From NCBI RefSeq assembly GCF_004216855.1, contig NZ_SGXT01000011.1, positions 310,001-374,000 on the forward strand: 64,000 nt of DNA. The letters are read 5' to 3'. A program made the translations under genes and the position numbers. The notes under the pieces are model-generated. The model was not told the DNA's origin. It saw only the letters and a list, made by a program, of their open reading frames with translations, and searched no databases. The stretch comes from Microcella alkaliphila (GTDB taxonomy: Bacteria; Actinomycetota; Actinomycetes; Actinomycetales; Microbacteriaceae). Positions 35,577-44,083 of this stretch are shown one piece after another. Within the stretch, counting starts at the first letter, position 1, and every line of letters starts with the position of its first letter.

Positions 35577-35652
35577 GGGCGATTGGCGCAGTTGGTAGCG
35601 CGCTTCCTTCACACGGAAGAGGTCATCAGTTCGAGTCTGGTATCGCCCACCA
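35577..35652 (+). tRNA. tRNA-Val (CAC)
   Basis: 76 bases including an encoded CCA. The acceptor stem is GGGCGAT / ATCGCCC and the anticodon loop TTCACAC gives CAC. It is nearly identical to tRNA-Val(GAC) on the other strand, so the two form a long inverted repeat around the Cys and Gly genes. Confidence 0.95.
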
Positions 35653-35653
35653 C

Positions 35654-36721
35654 TCACAGCCCCGGTTCGCCGGGGCTGTCGCCATTTTCGGAGCGTTTCC
35701 GCCGGCTCGTGGCCACACGCACACCTGCACCCGCCGCGGCGCCGACAGCGGCGCCCGCGAGCGTGATGACGAGCACTGCTCCCCCCTGCGCCGCGGCCTG
35801 CCCGAGCGACCCGGTCGCGGCGAACCCGATCCCCTCGGCGAGCAACGCCGTGACGACGCCTCCGGCCGCGAGTCCGGCGAGCAGGCCGAAGACGACGCCG
35901 CGGAGGGGCCGACGCTCGCTGCGCATCGCTCCCCCGACGACACCGGCCGCAGCTCCTACCGCGACCACGGCGACGGGCACGAGCGCCACGGCGGCCAGGG
36001 ACACGGCGGCCGCCCCGACGATGGTGCCCGCGACGGGATCCGCCGCGTGGGCGGGGCGTCCTGCGATGCGCACGACGAGCATCCAGCCGACGGCGCCGGT
36101 GACAGCGCCCACGGCGGCGAACACCAGGATGCTCGCGGTCGCCTCATCGAGGCGCCCCTCCGCCGCGACGACGGACGCGGCGACGGACAGTGCGCCGCTG
36201 ACACACGCGGCCAGGATTCTGCCGATGGGCACTCGCTCATGGTTCGCCGTCGACTCCGGATTCTTGCGGATGACGAGCAGGATCCCCACCATGACGGCGG
36301 CCGGCGCGGCGAGACGCGGAAATGCTCCCCCCAGGTCGACGGCGCCCAGCGTTGTTTCGAGCAGCGGTGGCACAGCGACGATGTGCACGACCGCGATCGG
36401 AGCGACAACAAGCGCCGCGCCGAGGGCGGCAACGACGCTTCGCGCGACGACCCCGACACGCCGCCGCAGAAGCAGTGCGATCACGGCGCCGCCCCCGGTG
36501 GCCGCCGCGCTGGCAGACACGGTTCGAGCGACGTCAACGGTTCCGGCGAGGGCGAGCACCGCGATCATTGCAACGGCGACGGCGACGGCCGCAGAGACGC
36601 CGATGGAGCGCGCATCCCGTCCGCTGGGCGCGCGGACGAAAAGTACGGCGGCGATGAGAAAGAGGGCGGCGGCGAGAGACGCGACCACGGTCACCGCGGG
36701 TGGCGAAACCAGAGTGGTCAC
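35654..36721 (-). CDS. Degenerate Amt-fold membrane protein lacking both channel histidines
   Basis: 355 residues from GTG at 36721 (GGGAGGA upstream), about ten spans. It has no obvious name, but aligns by eye with the neighbouring Amt almost without gaps: DLGGAFPRLAAPAAVMVGILLV matches Amt DYAGGTAVHINAGAAALALALV, AVGWMLVVRIAGRPAHAADPVAG matches ILGWLVVEKIKDGKPTAVGAASG, and the last spans also match. The positions of Amt His167 and His318 are Arg136 and Gly279. Transport activity is doubtful; a sensory or modulatory role is inference. Its last codons form the tRNA terminator hairpin. Confidence 0.65.
   Translation of the reverse strand: MTTLVSPPAVTVVASLAAALFLIAAVLFVRAPSGRDARSIGVSAAVAVAVAMIAVLALAGTVDVARTVSASAAATGGGAVIALLLRRRVGVVARSVVAALGAALVVAPIAVVHIVAVPPLLETTLGAVDLGGAFPRLAAPAAVMVGILLVIRKNPESTANHERVPIGRILAACVSGALSVAASVVAAEGRLDEATASILVFAAVGAVTGAVGWMLVVRIAGRPAHAADPVAGTIVGAAAVSLAAVALVPVAVVAVGAAAGVVGGAMRSERRPLRGVVFGLLAGLAAGGVVTALLAEGIGFAATGSLGQAAAQGGAVLVITLAGAAVGAAAGAGVRVATSRRKRSENGDSPGEPGL
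35656..35679 (+). terminator. Terminator of tRNA-Val(CAC) embedded in a coding end
   Basis: Ten-pair stem ACAGCCCCGG / CCGGGGCTGT with loop TTCG, followed by TCGCCATTTT on the plus strand. It begins four bases after the tRNA and lies wholly inside the last codons of the convergent Amt-like gene. Confidence 0.7.
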
Positions 36722-36757
36722 GACGGTCGTCCTCCCTCGGCCAGGCGCGCATACGAC

Positions 36758-36796
36758 GGCGGGGCGCCCTCCCGAGTGTGAGAGTAGCGCCCCGCC
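36758..36796 (-). terminator. Hairpin between amt and the Amt-like gene
   Basis: Ten-pair GC stem GGCGGGGCGC / GCGCCCCGCC with a 19-base loop, starting 20 bases after the amt stop and ending 37 bases before the GTG of the next gene. It probably reduces read-through from amt into the Amt-like gene. Confidence 0.5.
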
Positions 36797-36815
36797 GAAG
36801 GGGTGGTGCTAAGGA

Positions 36816-38033
36816 CTACTTCTGCTCGACGAAGTCGTACGCCTCGCCACCGTGGATCACGGTGTCGATGCCGGCGACCTCGTCCTCGTTCTTGACGCGG
36901 AAGCCAATCGTCTTCTCGATCGCGAGCCCCAAGATGAAGGCGACGACGAACGAGTAGATCAGCACGCCGAAGGCGGCGATCGTCTGAACGATCAGCTGGC
37001 CGAAGTCGCCACCGGTGAACAGGCCGGTGTCGATCGCGAAGAAGCCGAGGTACAGGGTTCCGATCATGCCGGCGACGAGGTGCAGGCCCACCACGTCGAG
37101 CGAGTCGTCGAAGCCGAGCTTGAACTTCAGCTCGATCGCGAGCGCGCTCACGGCACCGGCGATGACGCCGAGCACCAGCGCCCAGCCGGGCGACAGGTTC
37201 GCGCACGCCGGAGTGATCGCGACGAGTCCGGCGACGGCGCCCGAGGCGGCACCGACGGCCGTCGGCTTGCCATCCTTGATCTTCTCGACCACGAGCCAGC
37301 CGAGGATCGCCGCGGCGGTGCAGCCCAGCGTGTTGACGATGATGAGGCCAACCCCGGCGTTCCCTCCGCCGAACGCCTCGGCGCCCGCGTTGAAGCCGAA
37401 CCAGCCGAACCAGAGCAGCGACGCGCCGAGCAGCACGAGCGGCACGTTGTGGGGCTTGTGGGCACCCTTCTCGAACACGACGCGGCGGCCGAGCACGAGG
37501 GCGAGAGCCAGAGCCGCGGCGCCGGCGTTGATGTGCACAGCGGTACCACCGGCGTAGTCGATGACCTCGGGCAGGCCCATCAGCTCGCCGAGCGAGTAAG
37601 CCCAACCGCCACCCCACACCCACGCGGCGACGGGGAAGTACACGAGCGTGGCGAAGAGGCCGACGAAAATCATCCAGGCACCGAACTTCGCGCGGTCGGC
37701 GATGGCGCCCGAGACGAGCGCGACGGTGATGATGGCGAAGGTCGCGCCGAAGGTTACGCCGACGAGGCCGTCATTGTCAGCGACCATGCTGCCGAGGGCG
37801 AAGTCGGCGAATGGATTACCCGCGAATTGGAACGGGCTGTCGACGGCCGACATCGAGTAGCCGTAGAGAATCCACAGCACGCTGACGAGGCCGAGCGAGC
37901 CGAAGCTCATCATCATCATGCTGACGACGCTCTTGGCCTTGACGAGGCCGCCGTAGAAGAAGGCGACGCCGGGGGTCATGAGCAGAACGAGTGCGGTGGC
38001 CGTTACGGCCCATGCGAGTTCGCCGGTATCCAT
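36816..38033 (-). CDS. amt: Ammonium transporter
   Basis: 405 residues with about eleven spans. The channel histidines are His167 (GGTAVHINAG) and His318 (VVGLHLVAG); the family signature KPHNVPLVLLGASLLWFGWFGFNAGAE and the SMMMMSFG and GGW segments are intact. It carries ammonium into the cell. No glnK or glnD gene follows, unlike many amt operons. A near-perfect GlnR box upstream points to nitrogen control. Confidence 0.97.
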   Translation of the reverse strand: MDTGELAWAVTATALVLLMTPGVAFFYGGLVKAKSVVSMMMMSFGSLGLVSVLWILYGYSMSAVDSPFQFAGNPFADFALGSMVADNDGLVGVTFGATFAIITVALVSGAIADRAKFGAWMIFVGLFATLVYFPVAAWVWGGGWAYSLGELMGLPEVIDYAGGTAVHINAGAAALALALVLGRRVVFEKGAHKPHNVPLVLLGASLLWFGWFGFNAGAEAFGGGNAGVGLIIVNTLGCTAAAILGWLVVEKIKDGKPTAVGAASGAVAGLVAITPACANLSPGWALVLGVIAGAVSALAIELKFKLGFDDSLDVVGLHLVAGMIGTLYLGFFAIDTGLFTGGDFGQLIVQTIAAFGVLIYSFVVAFILGLAIEKTIGFRVKNEDEVAGIDTVIHGGEAYDFVEQK

Positions 38034-38238: not shown

Positions 38239-38604
38239 TCAGATTCGCTGCGATTCGTCAGGGTCACCGAACGCATCATCGGCCAGGTGGTCGGGCGTGG
38301 TGAACGATGCGGGCCGCGCCCCGGTGAGATACCCCGCTCGCGCGAGAGCGAAGCCGCCGATCGAGGAGGTGACGAGCTGGCCGATGATGGCGACGACTCC
38401 CTTGATGAGGTTCGCGACCGTCGGGTCGAGAACGAGGAGTCCGACGATGAGCAGTGCGACTCCGAGCCCAGCCGCGGCTGCGATCGCGCAGGCGCGGGTG
38501 TAGAAGTCGGGGAGTCGAATTAACCCGATCGCGCCACTCAGGATGATGAAGGCGCCAACGACGAGCATCGCGTTGCCGACGATGGTCTGCACGGTATCGA
38601 GCAT
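38239..38604 (-). CDS. mrpG: Na+/H+ antiporter Mrp subunit G
   Basis: 121 residues from ATG at 38604, which shares its A with the mrpF stop (TGATG). Three spans with ILSGAIGLIRLPDFYTRAC, the MrpG/MnhG signature, and a hydrophilic tail. It is the last gene of the Mrp operon. Confidence 0.93.
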   Translation of the reverse strand: MLDTVQTIVGNAMLVVGAFIILSGAIGLIRLPDFYTRACAIAAAAGLGVALLIVGLLVLDPTVANLIKGVVAIIGQLVTSSIGGFALARAGYLTGARPASFTTPDHLADDAFGDPDESQRI

Positions 38605-38870
38605 CAGCGCTTCCTCCCCTGCAGCAACCGCGCGAGCGACAGAATCGACAGGAAGCCGAGGATCGCCGCGACCAGAATGATGTCCAGAACGGCATCGACA
38701 CGGAGCAGCAGGCCGAACACCACCATCAATCCCATGAAGGCAAAAAGGATCAGGTCTCCGGCGATAGCACTGTCGGCCTTGGTGGGGCCCACCACAATGC
38801 GCACGACCGCGACGGCGACCGCGGCGATCAGCATGATCACGACGATGACGGCGACGACGGGATGGATCAT
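38604..38870 (-). CDS. mrpF: Na+/H+ antiporter Mrp subunit F
   Basis: 88 residues, three spans. RIVVGPTKADSAIAGDLILF and LDIILVAAILGFLSILSLARLL are typical of MrpF. It overlaps mrpE by four bases and mrpG by one. Confidence 0.93.
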   Translation of the reverse strand: MIHPVVAVIVVIMLIAAVAVAVVRIVVGPTKADSAIAGDLILFAFMGLMVVFGLLLRVDAVLDIILVAAILGFLSILSLARLLQGRKR

Positions 38871-39244
38871 GCCGGGGTGTCCTTTCCTCCGTCAGCGCGC
38901 GGGCGCGACCGGGTGGCGCGGAGCATCCGCCTCTCGAGGTCGAGAATGCTGGCACGGAACGCGTCTACGTCGCCGTTCACGAACATCCCGTAGACGTACA
39001 CGTCGCCGCGTTCGCGGTTGATGGCCATCAGCATCGTGTCGGGGGTCAGCGCGACGAGGATGACGAGCAGCGTCTCTTCGGTCTCGGTGAGGTCGTAAAG
39101 GTGCACCTTCACGATGCCGGATGTGGGCTTCTTCTTCGGCAGCAGCATGACGGCGAGCACGCGAATGCTCGCGACGACGACCTCGCCGAAGAACCAGCCG
39201 ATGAAAATCAGGATGCGCAGGGGCCACGCCCAGGGAGTGTTCAC
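38867..39244 (-). CDS. mrpE: Na+/H+ antiporter Mrp subunit E
   Basis: 125 residues. Short compared with many MrpE proteins: N-terminal span region LRILIFIGWFFGEVVVASIRVL, then VALTPDTMLMAINRERGDVYVYGMFV, which is the conserved MrpE core. It is coupled to mrpD and mrpF by four-base overlaps. Confidence 0.9.
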   Translation of the reverse strand: MNTPWAWPLRILIFIGWFFGEVVVASIRVLAVMLLPKKKPTSGIVKVHLYDLTETEETLLVILVALTPDTMLMAINRERGDVYVYGMFVNGDVDAFRASILDLERRMLRATRSRPRADGGKDTPA

Positions 39245-40872
39245 TGGCCGATCACCGCCACCACGTAGTCGGTCGTGTCGATGAGTCCGGCCGCGGCCTG
39301 CTCCGAGAGGCCGAGCAAGAACTCCGCGCCAACGCCGAGACAGACGGTAATCACCGCAAGTTGCAGGGCGGGCAGCGCCAGACGTAACGGTACCCGCAGG
39401 CCGTGCGGGTGGTCGTGCGCGTGATCGTCACCCTCGCCGGCATGCCCGGTGTCGTGGCGCTCGCGTGCTGCCTGAATCTCGGCGTCGACGGCGCCCGCGT
39501 CGACGGGTTCGTCGTCGAGAAGCCCGGCGGTCTCGCGCACGCGCGCCTCAGCAGCCCGGCGCTCGCTGTCCTGCGGCAGCTTGCCGTTGAATACGGCGGC
39601 CCAGATCTTCAGCATCGACAGCAGTGTGAACAGGCTGACGGCGATCGCGACGATGCCCACGATCACCTGCCCCGCGTCGATGGTGGCGAGAATCAGGCTG
39701 AACTTGGCGACGAAGCCCGAGAACGGGGGCAGTCCGGCCAGCGACAGCGCCGCGATCACGAAGGCCGCCGTAATGAGTGGCTCGCGGGTGCGCATGCCAC
39801 CGAGCTGGTCGAGACGACCACTGCCGTAGGTCTGCTCGAGCGCGCCGGTCGACAAGAACAGCGAGGCCTTCACGATCATGTGGTGCAGCAGGTAGAAGAT
39901 GCCGGCCGTGAGGCCCAACTGGGTGAACAAGCCGACGCCGACAAGGATGTAGCCAATCTGGCTCACCATGTGGAACACGAGGATTGAGCGCATCGTGGGC
40001 TCACCCATGGCCCCGAAGACGCCGATCACCATCGTGAGCGAGGTAATCACGAGCGCGATCACGAGCCAGGTGGCGTCGCCGTCGAAGACGACCGCATAGA
40101 TGCGGTAGATCACGTAGATCGCAACCTTGGTGTGCAGGCCTGAGAACAGCGCGGTCACCGCGGGCGACGTAACGACGTAGGTGCGCGCAAGCCAGCCGTG
40201 CACGGGGAACACGGCCGCCTTGACGGCGATCGCACCCAAACAGACGGCAGCGGCCACGGCCGTCGCCGGGTTGTCGACCGCCGCGCCCGCCAGTTCGGCG
40301 AGGTTCACGGTGCCCTCGACGGCGTAGATGAGGCCAACCCCACCCAGGAACAACGTCGAGGCGAGCAGGTTGACGGTGACATAGAGGCGCGCGCCGCCCA
40401 GGTCGCCCTGGCGACTGAGCACCAGCAGCAAGCCGTACGAGGGCAGCAGCATGACCTCGATGAAAACGAAGAGATTGAAGAGGTCGCCGGTCAGCAGCGC
40501 GCCGGCCACGCCACCCGCGAGAATCAGCACGAACGAGGCAATCGACGGGCTCCGCGCCTCCCGGCTCGCGATCATGTATTGGAAGCTGACCACCGCGAGG
40601 ATCGACGTCACGGTGAGGACTAGCGAGGCAAAGAGGTCGGCGACGAACGGGATGGAGATTCCGCCGGGCCACAACGCAACCTGGTGCGCAATGACGGTGC
40701 CGTCCGCGGTGAGCACGACGAGCAGAACGGCACCGGCGAGCATCGCCAGCAGCGAGACCATGCCGAGCACGCTGCGCAGCGTGTGCTGTCGCGGCAGAGC
40801 GAGCAGGATCCCACCAACCACGAGCGGAGCCCCCGCAAACATCGGGAGAAGCAACGACACGACGTCGGTCAT
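39241..40872 (-). CDS. mrpD: Na+/H+ antiporter Mrp subunit D
   Basis: 543 residues, about 14 spans, homologous to the Nuo proton-channel subunits. FNLFVFIEVMLLPSYGLL holds the conserved transmembrane Glu, and KAAVFPVHGWLARTYV the conserved Lys. A hydrophilic insertion near residues 430-495 between the last spans contains RHDTGHAGEGDDHAHDHPHG, unusually rich in His and Asp. It is coupled to mrpC. Confidence 0.95.
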   Translation of the reverse strand: MTDVVSLLLPMFAGAPLVVGGILLALPRQHTLRSVLGMVSLLAMLAGAVLLVVLTADGTVIAHQVALWPGGISIPFVADLFASLVLTVTSILAVVSFQYMIASREARSPSIASFVLILAGGVAGALLTGDLFNLFVFIEVMLLPSYGLLLVLSRQGDLGGARLYVTVNLLASTLFLGGVGLIYAVEGTVNLAELAGAAVDNPATAVAAAVCLGAIAVKAAVFPVHGWLARTYVVTSPAVTALFSGLHTKVAIYVIYRIYAVVFDGDATWLVIALVITSLTMVIGVFGAMGEPTMRSILVFHMVSQIGYILVGVGLFTQLGLTAGIFYLLHHMIVKASLFLSTGALEQTYGSGRLDQLGGMRTREPLITAAFVIAALSLAGLPPFSGFVAKFSLILATIDAGQVIVGIVAIAVSLFTLLSMLKIWAAVFNGKLPQDSERRAAEARVRETAGLLDDEPVDAGAVDAEIQAARERHDTGHAGEGDDHAHDHPHGLRVPLRLALPALQLAVITVCLGVGAEFLLGLSEQAAAGLIDTTDYVVAVIGQ

Positions 40873-41222
40873 GAGCGCACCTCCTGGCCCTCGTCACCCA
40901 GATCGGCGGGGGTCAGGGAGTCCGGTTCGGTGTCATCGTCCCGTCGACCAATCGCCGCGAAGGTCGCCATGACGACGGTGATCGAGAAGGCGATGACAAT
41001 GGCGGTGAGCACGAAGGCCTGGGGCAGCGGGTCGGCCGCCTGCGACGTGTCGCCGCCGAAGAACGGAGCATCGCGTCGCGCGACGCCACCCGACGCGATC
41101 AACAGCAGGTTGATGGCGTGGGTCACGAGGATGAAGCCAAAGATGATGCGCATCATGCCGCGTTGCAGGACGAGATAGATACCCGCCCCCATCAGTAAGC
41201 CAATGGTCAGCGCGAGACTCAT
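40869..41222 (-). CDS. mrpC: Na+/H+ antiporter Mrp subunit C
   Basis: 117 residues, NuoK-like with three spans. GIYLVLQRGMMRIIFGFILVTHAINLLLIASGG and FVLTAIVIAFSITVVMATF are conserved in MrpC. It overlaps mrpA and mrpD by four bases. Confidence 0.95.
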   Translation of the reverse strand: MSLALTIGLLMGAGIYLVLQRGMMRIIFGFILVTHAINLLLIASGGVARRDAPFFGGDTSQAADPLPQAFVLTAIVIAFSITVVMATFAAIGRRDDDTEPDSLTPADLGDEGQEVRS

Positions 41223-44083
41223 GCCGACACCTCCTCTCGGGCACGTTCTGTCGATCGTTTCGCTCGCTCGACAATTTCGCCGTGCCGCTCGCGCACCCCA
41301 CCGAGTTCGTTGAGAACGGCGATCACCATGGCGACAACGGCGAAGTACACACCAAGGTCGAAGATGAGGGCGCTGGTGAAGGCGTACTCACCACCCCAGG
41401 GCAAGGGGATGTCGAAGCGGATGGGGCGCAGGAACGACCCGACCGCCATCCCGGCAACACCGGTGAGCACGGCGACGATGATGCCGGAGGCGAAGAGTCC
41501 GCGGTACGGCCAGCGGACAGGCGCGAGACGGTCGGCCGATGCGCCCAGGTAGAAGAGGGCGAAGCCCGTCGCCCCGACGAGTGCCGAGATGAAGCCGCCG
41601 CCCGGCTCGTAGTGACCGCGCAGCAGCAGGTACAGCGACAGCACGACGATGACGGGCGCCGTCCAGTGCGCAACGACCCGGATGGGCATCGTGTTGTCGT
41701 GGCTGCGGGCGAGGGCGGAGGTCTCGGGCACGGCGAGGGCAACGTCGCGCTCGCCGATGAGCCGGCGGGTCCCGAGCACCGCCATCACGACGATGCCGGC
41801 GACCGCCACGACCGTGAGCTCACCGAACGTGTCCAGCGCGCGATAGTCAACGAGGATCGTGTTGACGATGTTCTCGCCGCCCGTGTCGATGTAAACGTTG
41901 TCGAGGAAGTACTGACCCACAGCAGAGATCTCGCGTCGACCCGTAAAGGCGAGGGTTGCAAGCGTGGCGGCGAAACCCGCACCCAGGGCGATCGCCGCCG
42001 TCACGATGGTGCGCTGGCGCGAGACGCGGTGGAAGCGCCGGGGCAGACGCCGGAGAATTAGCACGAGGGCGACCACCGTGAGCAGCTCGACGAGCAGCTG
42101 GGTGAGTCCGACGTCGATGGCGCCGAGGGCGAAGAACCAGATCGCCACCGCGAAGCCGGCGCCGCCGACGAGCACGAGCGCCGTGAGTCGCGAGCGAACG
42201 AGCACGGTCGGGATGACCGTGGCCGCGACGAGCGCGAACAGAACCGCATCGGTCCACGGCTCGTCGGGCTGGATGAGCGCGCCCGCGGTCGGGGCGACGA
42301 CGATGGCGGCGGCCGCGATGATACCGAGCAGGATCCACGGCACGCCAAGGTGCAGGGCCTGCCCGTCGGTGCGGGTGAGGTCGCCCACCCGGGCGCCGAG
42401 GGCAATCGACCCCGTACGCAACTTCTCGACCACGTCGATGGCGGTGAACGACAGGATGCGCCGCTCAAACACGCGGTCAAGTCGACGACGCTGGCTCACC
42501 ACGACCAGCCCCAGCACGATGATCGTGATCGACAGGGCGAGCTCCAGCGTGAAACCCGCGAACAGCGCGAACGTTGCCGTGTACGGCTCACCGGCGGCGG
42601 CGCTGCCGGCCGCCCCGGTCAGCGGGTGTAGCCACACGATCGCCGGCCCGAGCACGAGGCCCGCCAAGGCGGGGGCGAGGGCCGGGGCGAGGAATGCGGG
42701 CGATGCCTCGGAGACCATCTGGGGCATCCGATGCGTGTCGAGCGTGTCGTCGACGCGTTCGGTGCCCCGGTAGTCGGTGAATCCGCCGAGCAGGATGCGC
42801 GCGGTGTACGCGAACGTCGCCGTCGCGGCCAGCACGCCGGTCGCCGCGAGCGCCGCACCGAGCCACGCCGGGCCGCCCGGGTCGGCCAGGCCCCCGAGCA
42901 GGTACTCCTTTGCCACGAAGCCGAGCAGCGGGAAGATGCCCGCCATCGACAGCCCGGCAAGCAGGGTCGTCGCGAATGTCACGGGCATGCGGCGCGCCAG
43001 CCCCCGCAGAAGGCGAATGTCACGCGTTCCGGCCTGCTGGTCGACGATGCCGACCACCATGAACAGGGCCGCCTTGAACAGCGCGTGACCGAGCGTGTAG
43101 AGCGCCGCGGTCGCGAGGGCGCCCGGAGTACCGATGCCGATGATCGCGACGATGAAGCCGAGTTGGCTGACCGTCGAGTACGCCATGATCTCTTTCAGAT
43201 CAAAGCGGCGCAAGGCAAAGACGGCGCCCATGATGGCCGTTATGAGACCCGTGGTCACCAAGATCGACTGCCACACGACCGTGCCGGCGAGCGCGGGCGA
43301 GAACAGCAGCAGCAGGTAGATGCCCGCCTTCACCATGGCGGCGGCGTGCAGGTAGGCGCTCACCGGCGTCGGGGCGACCATCGCGTCGGGCAGCCACATG
43401 TGGAACGGGAACTGCGCCGACTTGGTCATCGCGGCGATCGCGACGAGCACGGCGACGGCCGCCGTGAACCCGCCGTCGGCCTGCCAAGCGTCACTCGCGA
43501 GGGCCTCGCTGACGACGGTGGTGCCCGTGCGGGCGATGATCAACACGACGGCGAACAGCAGCGCGAGACCACCCATCGCCGTGACGAGCAGGGTGCGCAC
43601 GGCGGGGGCGCTCGCCTTGCGTCCCGAGCGGTTGATCAAGAAGAACGAGCAGAGCGTCGTCAGCTCCCAGAACACGAACAGCAGCACGAGATCGTCAGCG
43701 AGAACGAGACCGGTCATCGCGAACGCGAACAGCAGCATCCATGCGTAGTAGCCGGTGTGCCGGTGAATGTCACGGCCCGACAGGTAGCGCGCTGAATACG
43801 CCATGACGAGGGCGCCGATGCCGAGCACGATGATTAAGAACAGGGCCCCGAGGCCGTCGAGACGCAGTCGGAGGGCGATGTCGAGCGTCGGCATCCACGG
43901 AACGCTTTCGCTCACGACACTGCCCGGTTCCAGAACCTCGGATGCTCGCATGGCGACCGCGACCGCGAGGGCTCCCAGCCCTGCCGCGGCAACCCAGCCC
44001 GCGGCGCGCCCAATGGCGACGGTGGCGGCCATTGTTACAACGACCACAACGAGGGTGGCGCCGAGCAGCATCATGAGGCTCAC
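41219..44083 (-). CDS. mrpA: Na+/H+ antiporter Mrp subunit A with fused B domain
   Basis: 954 residues from GTG at 44083. The NuoL-like N-terminal half (ARYLSGRDIHRHTGYYAWMLLFAFAMTGLVLADDLVLLFVFWELTTLCSF, KSAQFPFHMWLPDAMVAPTPVSAYLHAA) is followed by MrpA-specific spans and a C-terminal MrpB-like domain (HYEPGGGFISALVGATGFALFYL to ALIFDLGVYFAVVAMVIAVLNELGG). The complex exports Na+ in exchange for protons. Its start overlaps a short leader ORF (GTGA). Confidence 0.95.
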   Translation of the reverse strand: MSLMMLLGATLVVVVVTMAATVAIGRAAGWVAAAGLGALAVAVAMRASEVLEPGSVVSESVPWMPTLDIALRLRLDGLGALFLIIVLGIGALVMAYSARYLSGRDIHRHTGYYAWMLLFAFAMTGLVLADDLVLLFVFWELTTLCSFFLINRSGRKASAPAVRTLLVTAMGGLALLFAVVLIIARTGTTVVSEALASDAWQADGGFTAAVAVLVAIAAMTKSAQFPFHMWLPDAMVAPTPVSAYLHAAAMVKAGIYLLLLFSPALAGTVVWQSILVTTGLITAIMGAVFALRRFDLKEIMAYSTVSQLGFIVAIIGIGTPGALATAALYTLGHALFKAALFMVVGIVDQQAGTRDIRLLRGLARRMPVTFATTLLAGLSMAGIFPLLGFVAKEYLLGGLADPGGPAWLGAALAATGVLAATATFAYTARILLGGFTDYRGTERVDDTLDTHRMPQMVSEASPAFLAPALAPALAGLVLGPAIVWLHPLTGAAGSAAAGEPYTATFALFAGFTLELALSITIIVLGLVVVSQRRRLDRVFERRILSFTAIDVVEKLRTGSIALGARVGDLTRTDGQALHLGVPWILLGIIAAAAIVVAPTAGALIQPDEPWTDAVLFALVAATVIPTVLVRSRLTALVLVGGAGFAVAIWFFALGAIDVGLTQLLVELLTVVALVLILRRLPRRFHRVSRQRTIVTAAIALGAGFAATLATLAFTGRREISAVGQYFLDNVYIDTGGENIVNTILVDYRALDTFGELTVVAVAGIVVMAVLGTRRLIGERDVALAVPETSALARSHDNTMPIRVVAHWTAPVIVVLSLYLLLRGHYEPGGGFISALVGATGFALFYLGASADRLAPVRWPYRGLFASGIIVAVLTGVAGMAVGSFLRPIRFDIPLPWGGEYAFTSALIFDLGVYFAVVAMVIAVLNELGGVRERHGEIVERAKRSTERAREEVSA

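Follow-up and report, generated by a model that had tools for sequence, protein, structure and literature searches.

The pair of pore histidines known as twin-His is treated as a signature of Amt/Mep/Rh proteins. In vertebrates, RhCE and RhD are Rh-fold subunits that lack twin-His and assemble with RhAG, and sensor-type Amts carry fused signalling domains. The original prediction for the gene presented here knew of no described family with twin-His loss, a statement that was too strong in view of RhCE/RhD. The fungal Mep1/3 also lack the first His (PMC9040831), and His to Glu in some fungal Meps is given in PMC7447429 (2020) as the sole natural variation of the motif. In the one open-access library searched, no description of a bacterial case like the one reported below was found.

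Variants of the motif have been engineered in both AmtB and Mep2. For AmtB it is reported in PMC7447429 that D160 is needed for transport, that single pore-His variants are unselective and pass K+, and that the H168A/H318A variant neither supports growth on low ammonium nor carries a K+ current. According to PMC9040831, unselective passage of ammonium or K+ can persist in AmtB and Mep2 after the twin-His has been altered by engineering; double variants of Mep2, with Ala or Glu in place of the two histidines, pass K+ and give no growth support on ammonium, and the motif change is described there as leaving ammonium transport as such unimpaired and abolishing selectivity against potassium. Because the double Ala variant of Mep2 passed K+ (PMC9040831), loss of twin-His need not mean a dead pore. 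Concerning mixed assemblies, the erythrocyte Rh complex of RhCE/RhD with RhAG has been described (PMC10769835, PMC3003898), and inactive RhAG variants are reported to lower the activity of native RhAG on co-expression, which a RhCG variant did not do (PMC3742762).

The window analysed here is a stretch of 64,000 nucleotides from Microcella alkaliphila (Microbacteriaceae). It carries a canonical amt and, directly downstream on the same strand, a diverged paralogue. The features concerned are the following, with the basis of each in brackets:

35654..36721, minus strand: histidine-less Amt-fold paralogue, 355 aa (ORF, residue map, AlphaFold and fold search, relatives)
36816..38033, minus strand: canonical amt, 405 aa, His167 and His318 present (PF00909, TIGR00836)
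36335..36337, minus strand: codon of Asp129, equivalent to AmtB D160 (residue map; Asp in 57 of 57 paralogues)
36311..36313, minus strand: codon of Leu137, AmtB H168 column (residue map)
35882..35884, minus strand: codon of Leu280, AmtB H318 column (residue map)
36757..36797, minus strand: strong hairpin of the GGGGCGCTACTCT...GGGCGCCCC type between amt and paralogue (intergenic comparison)
35577..35652, plus strand: tRNA-Val(cac), convergent, right-hand neighbour of the locus (tRNA order)

The reading frame of the paralogue is intact, with 355 codons from a GTG start at 36721 (preceded by AGGGAGGA) to its end at 35654, and is 50 residues shorter than that of the neighbouring Amt. The stop of amt and the start of the paralogue are 94 nt apart. 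The Amt of the window scored 366.4 bits with PF00909 and 380.9 bits with TIGR00836, the latter over its cut-off, and is the only PF00909 match in the genome. Downstream of the paralogue the tRNA-Val is followed by Gly, Cys and Val tRNAs, and this tRNA order recurs at an empty site in another genome (G008) and in G200. The 3' end of the paralogue (35654-35700) appears to share sequence with the tRNA-Val terminator, and in some Microcella (L015, L019, L021) the ORF seems to enter the tRNA gene antisense, ending in WAIPDSN. Upstream of amt, the region 38239-44083 on the minus strand resembles, judged by eye, an operon for an mrp Na+/H+ antiporter, and many relatives carry an nhaA-like gene in its place; one or the other was present in 22 of the 44 stretches searched, whose flanks are of unequal length.

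Kinship between the two neighbours is not evident from their direct comparison. The original prediction rested on such an alignment, which proved no better than chance (BLASTP best E 0.56), with 58 of the 343 aligned residues identical. As for the nearly gap-free stretches first described, the family alignment has gaps in several places. The window paralogue matched zero Pfam and NCBIfam families at E<=10, and on a profile of 51 Microbacteriaceae Amts it scored -15.7 bits, the best of 500 shuffles scoring -2.0. Its relatives bridge the distance. As a query, the paralogue found matches in 23 of 99 related genomes, the window genome included, one of the matches (L023) being a true Amt. The window Amt in turn reached paralogue L020 (34% over 373 aa, E 3.5e-47) and also L018 (E 1.7e-13) and L016 (E 7.7e-12). 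On the Amt profile the scores of the paralogues grade from 263 bits down to negative values, the window clade lying at the low extreme. A profile built from 14 paralogues found 28 matches among PDB sequences, 28 of 28 being Amt/Mep (best 9.3e-18). The same profile gave some match in 322 of 349 genomes of the family, many of the 150 matches listed being true Amts, and in the window genome its second match was the genome's own amt at 108.9 bits. A Microcella-only paralogue profile gave 0 matches to solved structures, and the sequence proof therefore rests on relatives from other genera. At E<=10, PF00909 matched 8 of the 17 members of one alignment, a true Amt among the 8, and six paralogues of genus g104 exceed its gathering cut-off of 23.2, at 30.6 to 51.1 bits. 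A lack of any Amt profile match, which would count against the original prediction, thus holds for the window protein alone with regard to Pfam, while its family does match Amt.

The predicted structure is an 11-helix Amt fold. AlphaFold2 was run on the window protein with an alignment of nine Microcella paralogues, no Amt included, and gave 11 main helices (pLDDT 67.9, pTM 0.57; other four models 48 to 55). In a Foldseek search with this model, Amt/Mep/Rh proteins took ranks 1-46 (best E 8e-6, probability 1.00), other folds appearing at E 0.19 or worse. VIA-align with AmtB gave Z 23.1 and an rmsd of 3.8 Å over 326 residues, the next family reaching Z 11.8; the matches of this comparison include the sensor-type Sd-Amt1 (6eu6). 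The model of the sister protein L029 from M. alkalica (pLDDT 79.3, pTM 0.84) was closer still to AmtB, with Z 36.8 and 2.7 Å over 336 residues against Z 12.0 for the next family. Urea transporters and Rnf/Nqr subunits scored Z 12 or less, near the tool's stated helical-bundle background. As the original prediction supposed, the comparison with AmtB returned an Amt-like fold and not an unrelated one, and an unrelated membrane protein is ruled out by the fold matches together with the 14-paralogue profile, which matched Amt/Mep only. Kinship with Amt is shown only via intermediates and structure, and we regard it as virtually certain that the window gene is an Amt-fold paralogue of the adjacent amt.

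Pore residues were compared on a joint alignment of 111 rows in AmtB numbering. In the window protein D160 is kept as Asp129, H168 corresponds to Leu137 and H318 to Leu280, F107 to Ile81, F215 to Ser183 and D313 to Gly275, and 24 of the 156 Amt-invariant columns are retained. Neither pore histidine is present, as had been claimed; Arg136 and Gly279, which had been named as their replacements, lie one residue before the true columns in each case. The GG-to-GW spacing does differ by two residues from that of Amt, the counts being 80 versus 82 and not the 85 versus 87 first given. The C-terminal tail motif of the window Amt is not visible in the paralogue, the end columns of which align poorly.

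The comparison was extended to the 57 paralogues collected. D160 is present in 57 and G163 in 53, W212 in 20, H168 in 23 and H318 in 19; both histidines occur in 9 paralogues and neither in 24, one sequence (L017) being a fragment without the H318 column. F107, F215, N170, N216 and D313 are each found in 0. Under genus weighting, 122 of the 156 Amt-invariant columns are kept by under half of the paralogues, and those kept at 90% or more are, in window Amt numbering, P134, D159, G162, E219, G265, G269, A272 and G325. G265 is retained in 57 of 57, and the E219 column holds an acidic residue in 54 of 57. The columns kept at 90% or more thus hold the periplasmic Asp, an acidic residue close to the entry site and, for the most part, glycines, the latter taken here as packing positions. 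In the window protein selective ammonium conduction has likely been lost, since N216, D313 and the Phe gate are missing along with both histidines. The loss of normal transport proposed in the original prediction is thus likely from the pore residues, with the reservation that engineered twin-His variants may still conduct unselectively.

Set beside Amt/Mep proteins (PF00909, TIGR00836; AmtB and A. fulgidus Amt-1), the paralogue shares the predicted 11-helix fold, D160, G163, several glycines, gene adjacency and common descent with amt, but is devoid of twin-His, Phe gate, N216 and D313, and the window protein falls below the Pfam cut-off. Like RhCE/RhD, it is a diverged family member beside a conducting one. 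Those proteins belong to the eukaryotic Rh branch, where co-assembly has been described, whereas for the paralogue it is only a guess; an anchoring role beside RhAG has been proposed for them (PMC10769835). Fungal Mep1/Mep3 also depart naturally from the twin-His motif (first His to Glu; PMC9040831), but those proteins transport ammonium and differ at the first His alone, whereas the paralogues can lose both histidines and the gate. With sensors of the Sd-Amt1 type the paralogue shares the Amt fold and a likely role other than bulk uptake, but not the fused signalling domain.

The 57 paralogues come from at least 16 Microbacteriaceae genera, a lower bound taken from the matches listed that carries no claim of restriction to this family; they were drawn from the best-scoring matches and from relatives of the window, so that fractions of them are not population frequencies. 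Left out were three true Amts (L061, L063 and the second gene of L080), the cut locus L047 and the twin-Gln Amt L064, while L023 (true Amts), L024 (from the genome that also gave L043) and L025 (a fragment of G024) were kept out from the start; genomes G296, G369, G138, G398 and G393 were fetched later and lie outside the 57. Synteny with amt, which the original prediction had proposed looking for, is widespread: for 50 of the 57 the fetched stretch shows an Amt ORF just ahead of the paralogue and in the same orientation, and the distance is 55-121 nt in 22 of 22 loci measured. Within the window's genus the gene was found in 18 of 26 genomes, with a partial match beside amt in three fragmented assemblies (G011, G020, G025). 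G006 and G008 lack it although the site is intact, amt being followed by the same tRNAs, and G007, G015 and G017 were unclassified. In 111 genomes from other families of the order, matches were at most 128 bits and were read as probable Amts from score and frame length alone, a close pair (G427) and the 128-bit match (G460) included.

The two genes are not always found together. Among seven genomes of genus g104, three carry both genes, one carries amt only and three carry the paralogue with no true Amt found, namely G200 (one contig, 96% complete), G296 (93%) and G369 (87%), in all of which the paralogue is intact. The paralogue loci of these three genomes are L085, L115 and L116. In G200 and G369 the paralogue lies beside an nhaA-like gene, in the position held by amt in G251. 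In five g111 genomes the paralogue is apart from amt, and the genome has a second PF00909 match.

Regarding selection, the window and its nearest relative share 68% amino acid identity in the paralogue and 99.5% in the adjacent Amt. The dN/dS of the paralogue was 0.16-0.44 in 13 of 13 pairs, rough values given that synonymous sites are partly saturated, and that of amt was 0.02 to 0.13 where both members had the same amt type (ten pairs) and 0.30 to 0.52 where the types were mixed (three pairs). In genus g104 the corresponding values were 0.15-0.47 in 15 of 15 partly saturated pairs for the paralogue and 0.09 to 0.37 in 6 for amt, the higher paralogue values coming from pairs that involve an amt-less genome. 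All 57 paralogues have open frames, one being cut by a contig end. By these sequence measures the paralogue is a maintained, fast-evolving gene under purifying selection. The open frames and the dN/dS of 0.16-0.44, which is not near 1, argue against a pseudogene. One stop inside the profile match was flagged in each of G341, G374, G393, G289 and G251; all five keep a long open frame of 336 to 430 codons from stop to stop, which speaks against a pseudogene with an internal stop, and the flagged stops probably sit where the match begins or ends.

A tree that included 52 Amts placed the paralogues together on one side of a branch with SH-aLRT 100, a placement that carries a long-branch warning. 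A single origin of all paralogues is suggested, which may have been one tandem duplication of amt early in Microbacteriaceae. Strict co-evolution with the adjacent Amt was rejected for Microcella. A single split of the amt tree (support 100/100) separates the amt types there, but the paralogue tree requires 3 changes of type, of which well-supported branches force at least 2. At the sharpest switch, which involves a MAG, the paralogues are 93.5% identical and the amt genes 73%.

The hairpin between the two genes recurs in slightly varied form in Microcella, namely in 17 of 17 intergenic stretches with the paralogue and at one empty site without it, and its left arm is nearly invariant across the 18 of 18 stretches compared. 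Because it also stands behind amt at the site without the paralogue, the hairpin is a feature of amt itself, probably a leaky terminator or attenuator. A leaky terminator behind amt would result in a low level of the paralogue. A promoter scan of the intergenic region revealed no sigma-70-like site between amt and the paralogue, and one terminator-like match in the same scan lies inside the ORF, about as expected from shuffles.

The regulatory context of Amt in this family was also considered. None of 60 Microbacteriaceae genomes had a PF00543 match above 72 bits, as against 28 of 39 from other families with one at 85 bits or more; weaker matches (58-71 bits) occurred in 19 of the 60, that of the window genome being the one opened. 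We read this as a Microbacteriaceae family without GlnK, a trait of the whole family that would count as one evolutionary event, and such an absence would leave room for another Amt regulator. The only PF00543 (P-II) match of the window genome scores 63.9 bits, lies at L026 1501-1800 (G000 contig 2), not next to amt, and directly follows a large ORF whose product, judged by eye, resembles an inorganic carbon protein of the DabA type.

Our first choice, tentative and held at somewhat under even odds, is a non-conducting companion of Amt. Carrying Leu in the two histidine columns and lacking the Phe gate, the paralogue would no longer conduct ammonium selectively, would be kept mainly for its fold and periplasmic face, and would join or modulate Amt in mixed trimers, on the model of RhCE/RhD beside RhAG. 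The kept fold and D160 suggest that assembly and the periplasmic face still matter, and the wide synteny with amt counts in favour of this reading, as do the apparent lack of GlnK and the lowered activity of native RhAG beside inactive variants (PMC3742762). A strict partner role is weakened by the amt-less g104 genomes, the separated g111 genes and the switches of amt type in Microcella, and G006 and G008, which lack the paralogue, also count against it. A stand-alone pore comes close behind, as the paralogue persists in three genomes in which no true Amt was found. Such a repurposed pore, forming its own homotrimer and acting independently of Amt as a less selective cation channel (NH4+/K+) or as a path for a gas, is possible though rather unlikely in our judgement. 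Besides those three genomes, the five in which the paralogue is apart from amt, the constancy of D160 (57 of 57) amid changes at other pore positions, the Na+/H+ antiporter-like gene in 22 of 44 stretches, and the passage of K+ by AmtB single pore-His and Mep2 double variants (PMC7447429, PMC9040831) are all consistent with it. However, no K+ current is reported for AmtB with Ala in place of both histidines (PMC7447429, Table 1), the window protein has Leu at both histidine columns, and the wide variation of these residues among lineages is unlike a conserved new filter.

The very fast evolution of the paralogue next to a nearly unchanged Amt, the low retention of Amt-invariant columns (122 of 156 kept by under half) and the clean absence in G008 and G006 would also be expected of a slowly eroding relic, that is, a weakly constrained duplicate that is being lost and has no role of its own. 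We consider this improbable, as dN/dS is well under 1 in every pair measured, frames are open in at least 16 genera, and D160 and G265 are kept in 57 of 57. More doubtful still, and to our mind very unlikely, is an ammonium sensor or receptor that would bind ammonium at the kept periplasmic site and signal. The retention of D160 (57 of 57) and of an acidic residue at E219 (54 of 57) would suit it, as would the shared fold of sensor-type Amts, Sd-Amt1 among them, but the paralogue has no fused effector domain and a short C-terminal tail, and no signalling gene was recognised beside it, the neighbours being judged by eye.

Returning to the companion and the stand-alone pore, the chances seem to us evenly balanced that the paralogues constitute a bacterial Amt-fold class, in tandem with amt in at least 16 genera, with the Asp kept and the Phe gate and often twin-His lost, which would be either a counterpart of RhCE/RhD or a new stand-alone function. 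This reading contradicts the statement in PMC7447429 that His to Glu is the sole natural variation. The dozens of paralogues provide a natural mutational series in which D160 is kept, the histidines are variable and the Phe gate is gone; it could help to tell which role D160 has beyond conduction, whether bacterial Amt trimers tolerate a dead subunit, and how Amt is controlled in a family where GlnK was not found. Genus g104, with paired, amt-only and paralogue-only genomes, offers natural controls.

Finally, another natural twin-His variant was encountered in L064 (a gene seen again in L092; genome G047 of genus g23). This Amt looks canonical in other respects, but both of its pore histidines are Gln, and it also carries F107 to Val and F215 to Val.
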